64,000 bases of DNA from Pseudonocardia autotrophica (GTDB lineage: Bacteria; Actinomycetota; Actinomycetes; Mycobacteriales; Pseudonocardiaceae): contig NZ_JNYD01000010.1 in assembly GCF_000717175.1 (NCBI RefSeq), positions 1-64,000 on the forward strand, written 5' to 3'. The notes beneath the pieces are model-generated. The model had not been told where the DNA came from, did no database searches, and worked only from the letters and a program-made list of their open reading frames with translations. Numbering within the stretch: the first letter of the stretch is position 1; every line of letters begins with the position of its first letter. The translations under genes and the position numbers were made by a program. This document shows, one piece after another, positions 39,261 to 43,154 of the stretch.

Positions 39261-40682
39261 TCACTCGAAGCCGAGGATCGACTTGGTCTCCAGGTACTCG
39301 GCGAACCCGGCAGCGCCGAACTCCCGTCCGTTGCCGGAGCGGCGGTACCCGCCGTAGGGGGCGCCGAAGTCCGTGTCGGCTCCGTTGACGTGCACCTCGC
39401 CGGTCCGCAGCCGCCGCGCCAGGGCGCGGGCCCGGTCCGGCTCGCCGGAGACCCAGGCGGACAGGCCGTAGTCGGAGTCGTCGGCGATGCGCACTGCCTC
39501 GTCCTCGTCGGCGTAGCCGATCAGCACCAGGACGGGGCCGAAGATCTCCTCGCGGGCGATCGTCATCGAGTTGTCGACGTCGGCGAATACGGTCGGGCGG
39601 GCGTAGAAGCCGGTGTCGAGGCCGTCCGGACGGCCGGGCCCGCCCGCAACGAGGGTGGCGCCCTCGGCGATGCCGCGTGCGATGTAGTCCTGCACCGTGC
39701 GGAACTGCGTCTCCGACGCGAGCGGGCCCATCACCGTGTCCTTCGCCGTGGGCGGCCCGACGACCACGGCCTCCGCCGCGTCGGCCGCCGCCCGCACGAC
39801 GTCTGCCATCCGGGCCGCCGGGACCAGCATCCGCGTCGGTGCGTTGCACGACTGGCCGCTGTTGGTACACAGGACCCGGACGTCGCGGGCGACGAGCGCG
39901 GGCAGGTCGTCCCCGTCGAGCAAGATGTTCGCCGACTTGCCGCCGAGCTCCTGGGTCACCCGCTTCACGGTCGGCGCGGCGACCCGGGCGACCTCGATAC
40001 CTGCCCGCGTTGAGCCGGTGAACGAGACCATGTCGACGCCGGGATGGGCGGCCAGCGCGGCACCGACGGTCGGCCCGTCGCCGTTTACCAGGTTGAACAC
40101 GCCCGCAGGAACCCCGGCCTCGTCGAGCACCTCGGCGAGGAGCAGGGCGTTCAGCGGGGCGCGCTCCGAGGGCTTCAGCACCATGGTGCAGCCCGTGGCG
40201 AGCGCCGCGGCGACCTTCGGGACGATCTGGTGAATCGGCCAGTTCCACGGGGTGATCAGCGCACAGACCCCGATCGGCTCGTGCACTACGAGGGTCGAGC
40301 CCTGCCTGCGCTCAAAAGCGAAGTCCGCCAACACTGTCCGCGTGGTCTCGAGGTGAACCACACCGACCGCGGCCTGGACGTCGACCGCGAGCGCCCGCGG
40401 CGCCCCGATCTCCCGGCTGATCGACTCGCCGATCTCCTCGGCGCGCTTGGCGTAGATCTCGGTGATCCGGTCGAGCAGCCGCAGCCGCTCGTCCACGCCT
40501 ATACGAGACCAGGTCTCGAACGCGCCGCGCGCGGCGGCCACCGCGGCGTCGACGTCCGCGGCCTCGCCGAGCGCGATCGTCTCGATCTCCTGCTCAGTCG
40601 CCGGATCGACCACCGGCAGCGTGCGAGGGCCGGCCGGGTCGACCCACCGGCCGCCGATGTAGAACTGCCTGGCGTGCTCCAT
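39261..40682 (-). CDS. Aldehyde dehydrogenase, possible separate product from an internal start
   Basis: From ATG 40682 the frame gives a 473-residue aldehyde dehydrogenase of normal length, beginning MEHARQFYIGGRWVDP. It contains PWNWPIHQIVPKVAAALATG, SFTGSTRAG for NAD binding, the Glu in QELGGKSAN, the nucleophile in GQSCNAPTRM and EIFGPVLVLIGY. AAGGAGAA with a five-base gap is a good ribosome binding site. This argues that the gene was once separate and that the upstream stop codon was lost, or that both the fused and the short protein are made. It would oxidise the aldehyde formed from the alcohol released by the hydrolase. Confidence 0.7.
   Translation of the reverse strand: MEHARQFYIGGRWVDPAGPRTLPVVDPATEQEIETIALGEAADVDAAVAAARGAFETWSRIGVDERLRLLDRITEIYAKRAEEIGESISREIGAPRALAVDVQAAVGVVHLETTRTVLADFAFERRQGSTLVVHEPIGVCALITPWNWPIHQIVPKVAAALATGCTMVLKPSERAPLNALLLAEVLDEAGVPAGVFNLVNGDGPTVGAALAAHPGVDMVSFTGSTRAGIEVARVAAPTVKRVTQELGGKSANILLDGDDLPALVARDVRVLCTNSGQSCNAPTRMLVPAARMADVVRAAADAAEAVVVGPPTAKDTVMGPLASETQFRTVQDYIARGIAEGATLVAGGPGRPDGLDTGFYARPTVFADVDNSMTIAREEIFGPVLVLIGYADEDEAVRIADDSDYGLSAWVSGEPDRARALARRLRTGEVHVNGADTDFGAPYGGYRRSGNGREFGAAGFAEYLETKSILGFE

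Positions 40683-43154: not shown

Follow-up and report, generated by a model that had tools for sequence, protein, structure and literature searches.

A predicted monooxygenase-hydrolase-aldehyde dehydrogenase fusion gene in Pseudonocardia, read as the product of a lost stop codon

Does one long open reading frame of Pseudonocardia autotrophica encode a single protein with three enzyme domains, and if so, how did these domains come together and what would they do? The frame lies in the first 64,000 nucleotides of contig NZ_JNYD01000010.1 (assembly GCF_000717175.1), the whole of which we call the window. It runs on the minus strand from an ATG at 43154 to a TGA ending at 39261, with 1297 codons and no internal stop. 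A preliminary description of the window had read it as a flavoprotein of the Baeyer-Villiger monooxygenase (BVMO) type, an alpha/beta-hydrolase and a complete aldehyde dehydrogenase (ALDH) joined in one gene. Openness alone is weak evidence for such a gene, because the GC content of the window is 71.8% and at least seven other open frames in it exceed 700 codons; the case for a real gene is carried by domain content and conservation. Judged by sequence comparison, this is a real, conserved three-domain fusion of single origin, so far confined to Pseudonocardia-type sequences. The layout, which is common to three further sequences (P0002, P0003 and G046, introduced below), is as follows.

39261..43154, minus strand: the fused gene as a whole (1297 codons and the TGA)
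41520..43154, minus strand: flavin monooxygenase of the phenylacetone/steroid monooxygenase branch (residues 1-545)
40710..41519, minus strand: alpha/beta-hydrolase of HSL/Abhydrolase_3 descent, without the HGGG motif and the lid (residues 546-815)
40683..40709, minus strand: linker of 9 codons, presumed former intergenic spacer (residues 816-824)
39264..40682, minus strand: complete ALDH (residues 825-1297), which could plausibly also start on its own at Met825

A Pfam scan matched Pyr_redox_3 to residues 20-220 (5.2e-15) and FMO-like to 19-239 (4.7e-8), Abhydrolase_3 to the middle part of the protein (1e-13), and Aldedh to residues 837-1293 (1.2e-142; 476 bits against a cut-off of 23). The last match spans profile positions 1-461 of 461, so the dehydrogenase is indeed complete, and the reading of 1297 stop-free codons as three joined enzyme domains was confirmed by the frame, the Pfam content and four sequences. 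From motif positions we located Asn971, presumably the active-site Asn, together with Glu1069 and Cys1103, which we take to be the catalytic residues. A chance open frame, as an explanation of the 1297 codons, was ruled out by this domain content.

The same three-domain order is present elsewhere. In a protein search with scoring over residues 600-1297, 112 of the 7991 scored proteins were listed, and three clusters among them have all three domains: the window's own (P0001), P0002 (Pseudonocardia yuanmonensis, 1297 aa) and P0003 (a JGI protein, 1293 aa). The same three clusters were found in a second protein search, among 22 proteins listed of 7994. When 62 genomes of the genus were searched, a fourth fusion emerged in the genome G046, whose open frame has 1326 codons and, read from the ATG, encodes 1289 aa; neither protein search listed G046 as a fusion, its dehydrogenase being listed there as P0113 (nr, P. 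broussonetiae). Since the two dehydrogenases are identical over 473 residues, we take G046 to be P. broussonetiae. The fused gene also occurs letter for letter in the Pseudonocardia halophobica record L074, and a second assembly of the window's species (G048, which may or may not be another strain) is identical across positions 33002-50002. Neither G048 nor G046 has a stop between residues 810 and 825, and the closest homologues extend past the hydrolase rather than ending with it.

The window and G046 frames can be aligned without a gap across codons 806-832, and the G046 frame is unbroken. Identity between the two is 76.8% in the monooxygenase, 59.5% in the hydrolase and 81.4% in the dehydrogenase, with ratios of nonsynonymous to synonymous substitution rates (dN/dS) of 0.29, 0.43 and 0.20, respectively; therefore, all three domains appear to be under constraint, and the hydrolase is the fastest-changing of them. 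All 16 query pieces of the window's gene cluster were matched in the same order at the G046 locus, 15 at 60-87% identity and the last, an enoyl-CoA hydratase, at 35%. The four fusions formed one clade both in a tree of the monooxygenase domain (support 100/100) and in one of the dehydrogenase domain (99/97). Thus, a single fusion event is the simplest account.

What were the parents? Monooxygenase-hydrolases of two domains (848-893 aa), which have no dehydrogenase, are widespread: they make up 9 of the 112 proteins listed in the first search, by Pfam content, and 19 of the 22 listed in the second, and a further one of 862 aa is encoded in the genome G015. We aligned 28 of these proteins with the four fusions (alignment A1, 32 rows), leaving out P0251, which covers 72% of the query. 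The two groups are collinear as far as the end of the two-domain proteins, near residue 815. These relatives, annotated as 'steroid monooxygenase' or 'flavin-containing monooxygenase' (for example P0089, P0238 and L002), have the domain order and the Ser, Asp and His of the fusions. Stand-alone dehydrogenases of 70-77% identity, in turn, start at the residue equivalent to Met825. P0015 (816 aa), in which an ALDH precedes a monooxygenase, was set aside as a related fusion; by eye, its ALDH end reads out of frame.

The linker between these two parts carries a further mark of its probable origin.

40688..40693, minus strand: internal Shine-Dalgarno (SD) sequence AAGGAG, 5 bases before Met825; GAGGAG stands before a GTG at the same place in G046

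Codons 817-824 have the lowest codon-adaptation score of the 1290 eight-codon windows in the fused gene, and six of the seven codons 817-823 end in A, compared with 3.9% of 6239 background codons (15 window genes, two of them taken with one extra codon at the start, plus the fused gene minus its linker). This poor adaptation is explained by the AAGGAG lying five bases before the ATG of Met825. The preliminary description had pointed to a ribosome binding site here, and rightly so: in the window gene, Met825 is the only one of 62 in-frame ATG or GTG codons after codon 1 with an SD-like match of at least 5 bases at a distance of 4-9 nt, making it a good internal start. G046 has two such codons among 71, one of them at the place equivalent to Met825. 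The sequence suggests that the linker is probably a former intergenic spacer with its old ribosome binding site, and that a separate dehydrogenase is probably still made from Met825. The only change of linker length among the fusions is that of P0003, by one whole residue.

The flavoprotein domain shares about 50% identity over its whole length, and its fold, with phenylacetone monooxygenase (PAMO; 1w4x) and steroid monooxygenase (4ap3), which differ in being single-domain proteins. Type I BVMOs turn a ketone into an ester, using NADPH and FAD, and have two Rossmann dinucleotide sites (GxGxxG/A), the fingerprint FxGxxxHxxxWP/D and, as further hallmarks, the catalytic Arg337 and Asp66 of PAMO. 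Both Rossmann sites are present here (VVGAGFAG and VVGTGSSG), and Asp66 and Arg338, the equivalent of PAMO Arg337, are invariant across A1. The fingerprint, at residues 167-178, reads FAGEIVSTARWP, with Ser173 at the position of the His that PAMO keeps; the four fusions have S, T, S and S there. The term BVMO-type is thus correct as to homology, Rossmann sites and the Arg/Asp pair, but not as to the fingerprint His, and for this domain it is a statement of homology. The two-domain relatives resemble the fusions in this respect, as 26 of the 28 also lack the His; the remaining 2 have it, and Phe is the commonest replacement (15 of 28).

The hydrolase domain can be judged by the following positions.

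41235..41246, minus strand: residues 637-640 (VGEP), at the place of the oxyanion motif HGGG, which all 28 two-domain rows have
41031..41033, minus strand: codon of Ser708, presumed nucleophile; Ser in 32 of 32 rows
40881..40883, minus strand: codon of Asp758; Asp in 32 of 32 rows
40791..40793, minus strand: codon of His788; His in 32 of 32 rows

The GxSxG motif and the Ser-Asp-His triad of HSL-type esterases were found in all 32 rows, so the Ser708, Asp758 and unplaced His of the preliminary description stand, the His being His788. In a model of the monooxygenase-hydrolase part (predicted local distance difference test score, pLDDT, 79.7), the hydrolase is predicted to have eight core strands and helices. 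However, the implied intact hydrolase was only partly borne out. The HGGG motif is a hallmark of HSL-type esterases (Abhydrolase_3), and the four fusions have VGEP, VAAP, VAAP and VGDG in its place. The segment aligned to residues 736-748, which corresponds to the lid, has 13-16 residues in the fusions and 52-57 in the two-domain proteins, a loss of about 40 residues, and the YRHAP-type motif after strand 4 is also gone from the fusions. Among the 19 two-domain matches of the second protein search with a visible lid (18 of them aligned), we found no intermediate with a trimmed hydrolase and no dehydrogenase.

How might such a protein work? The order of the domains had been taken to match the chemistry, and this did not hold up: when an ordinary BVMO ester or lactone is hydrolysed, an alcohol or a hydroxy acid results, not an aldehyde, and only after a further oxidation of this product is there a substrate for an aldehyde dehydrogenase. 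The dehydrogenase fits directly only with an enol ester; otherwise a separate enzyme is needed, such as the short-chain dehydrogenase/reductase (SDR) encoded at 37226-38029. Our model suggests that a two-domain monooxygenase-hydrolase gene once lay directly before an ALDH gene, that the stop between them was lost once in the ancestor of four Pseudonocardia-type lineages, and that the open frame then persisted. As no stop precedes codon 1298, ribosomes that start at codon 1 would have to read on to the end of the protein, short of dropping off or a frameshift, while the old ribosome binding site kept in the linker would probably allow some free dehydrogenase as well. The flavin domain, by homology, would insert oxygen into a ketone; the lidless hydrolase would open the resulting ester or lactone, which is the weakest step; and the dehydrogenase would oxidise an aldehyde that came either straight from an enol ester or by way of the neighbouring SDR. 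The acid would then pass to a CoA ligase, to a kinase/dehydrogenase pair resembling ACAD11, and into beta-oxidation. We put the probability that the fusion is genuine, belongs to a ketone-degrading operon, arose by stop loss and acts in this manner at about 0.72 on the sequence evidence. Its chief advantage would probably come from fixed stoichiometry and from joint assembly on the dehydrogenase oligomer, more than from any channelling of product. A more specific version, which we regard as a long shot, is a self-contained enzyme for alpha,beta-unsaturated ketones, in which an enol ester or lactone would be cut by the hydrolase to an aldehyde and then oxidised to an acid, with the pool of free dehydrogenase topping up the last step. 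The enol product would collapse straight to the aldehyde, so that no alcohol dehydrogenase would be needed, and because enol esters are activated, the hydrolase could manage without HGGG and lid.

Several observations weigh against a genuine three-enzyme fusion of this kind. The missing HGGG and fingerprint His both count here, and in a model of the hydrolase-dehydrogenase part (pLDDT 74.9) residues 736-799 score below 50, although the other model predicts most of them well; the two models therefore disagree on the C-terminal half of the hydrolase. No ALDH match was found in the 18 kb (G015) and 12 kb (G051) fetched around two-domain genes, so the adjacency of the parent genes would follow from the SD sequence alone. 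P0002 and P0003 enter the comparison as protein sequences, and the fusion product and its activity are predictions from sequence. The linker has a dN/dS of 1.16 (over 9 codons only), which indicates no constraint of the linker itself, and the open frame across it could be merely tolerated. Finally, P0113, a dehydrogenase-only record of 492 aa, starts within the last hydrolase helix, at a Met 19 residues before the GTG.

The last two points would suit an account in which chance removed the stop and the resulting open frame is tolerated, the working dehydrogenase being the free one from Met825 and the long protein a by-product. The strong SD sequence at the same place in the window and in G046 would also be expected then. 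We nevertheless consider this account unlikely, given that all four known members are stop-free, that the linker has changed in length only by a whole residue, and that ribosomes translating the end of the hydrolase must continue into the dehydrogenase. A stronger contender, to which we give somewhat less than even odds, is that the hydrolase is now a non-catalytic scaffold between two oxidoreductases and that the ester is opened by another hydrolase, for example the one encoded at 46836-47582 within the conserved cluster. The loss of HGGG and lid in four of four fusions agrees with this, as does the faster change of the domain in identity and dN/dS; but a dead domain would have no need of the Ser, Asp and His kept in every row, and its core fold is predicted to be intact in one of the two models. 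By comparison, it is very improbable that an error of sequencing or assembly took out a stop or changed the frame. Two neighbour genes in G046 are read in two frames, so that assembly has indel-like breaks, and P0015 is an example of an ALDH-monooxygenase fusion apparently made by a frameshift. Yet the junction is common to four sequences, gap-free between the window and G046, and identical in the second assembly, and on these grounds we rejected an artefact.

The wider occurrence of the hydrolase and the dehydrogenase was counted in samples of genomes at strict thresholds. The hydrolase was matched at E <= 1e-20 in 5 of 390 genomes of the family, lying in frames of 1301-1326 codons in the window's own genome (G000), G048 and G046, and in two-domain frames in G015 and G051. 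An ALDH of this similarity was found in 3 of the 390 family genomes, and in the own genome only among 397 genomes of the order (E <= 1e-195) and 394 of the class (E <= 1e-190). The hydrolase had no match among 72,556 plasmid records (tblastn, 1e-5), a result uninformative beyond that collection, and a mobile origin was set aside.

Two-domain monooxygenase-hydrolases and three-gene fusions that end in an ALDH are known already; what the window adds is the three-domain combination. Phrase matching in open-access literature, a weak test of novelty, gave no paper with such a fusion named in its title. BVMO, lactonase and aldehyde dehydrogenase serve one route as separate proteins in the ChnB-ChnC-ChnD-ChnE cyclohexanone pathway; there an alcohol dehydrogenase, which the fusion does not have, acts after the lactonase and before the aldehyde dehydrogenase. 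ALDH1L1 (10-formyltetrahydrofolate dehydrogenase), whose ALDH domain is among the PDB matches, is described in PMC8748788 as a fusion that, like ours, ends in an ALDH. It can serve as a comparison of working principle only; it has an unrelated N-terminal hydrolase and a carrier-protein domain in the middle, whereas the Pfam scan found no carrier domain in the window's fusion, where hydrolase and ALDH are joined by the 9-residue linker. We hypothesize that the locus represents a metabolic gene fusion caught while its old ribosome binding site can still be read in the linker, and while one domain, the hydrolase, is being stripped down after or around the fusion. Such a system would allow a direct test of what a fusion gains, be it stoichiometry, channelling or nothing, and a natural monooxygenase-hydrolase-dehydrogenase polypeptide would be a scaffold for ketone-to-acid biocatalysis in one protein.

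The neighbouring genes bear on the proposed pathway.

38026..39243, minus strand: ACAD11-like acyl-CoA dehydrogenase, the next gene (ACAD11 8v3u at 1.4e-122; best ordinary acyl-CoA dehydrogenase listed, 6.8e-42)
37226..38029, minus strand: SDR, candidate separate alcohol dehydrogenase
36157..37233, minus strand: kinase of the APH type, akin to the kinase domain of ACAD11 (PF01636 at 6.8e-48; 8v3v at 8.4e-41)
43267..44790, minus strand: acyl-CoA ligase, lying upstream of the fused gene (427.5 bits with the long-chain acyl-CoA ligase model, short of the 476 that this model sets as cut-off)
46836-47582: separate alpha/beta-hydrolase in the conserved cluster

Apart from the kinase and the acyl-CoA dehydrogenase, the cluster holds a CoA ligase, SDRs, a reductase of the AcuI/YhdH type, enoyl-CoA hydratases and a thiolase. 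The separate kinase and acyl-CoA dehydrogenase genes are each related to one half of mammalian ACAD11, and the SDR gene lies between them. According to PMC11342911, the kinase LvaA and the acyl-CoA dehydrogenase LvaC of Pseudomonas putida, and ACAD10/11 in mammals, remove the 4-hydroxyl of hydroxyacyl-CoA. By their sequences, the ACAD11-like neighbours thus suggest hydroxyacyl-CoA catabolism, and this set of genes would suit a hydroxy acid released by the opening of a lactone.

At the G046 locus, the acyl-CoA ligase (L126:5860-7339) and SDR (L126:14458-15209) genes each match in two frames, which looks like small assembly indels or broken genes. The annotation of P0113 appears to hide the fusion, as the genome frame is open far upstream of its start. 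Adjoining the cluster in the window, at 50076-53938, is an ATP-binding cassette system of the sugar type (Peripla_BP_4, a BPD_transp_2 permease and an ATPase), with its binding protein on the other strand, and this system may import the substrate.
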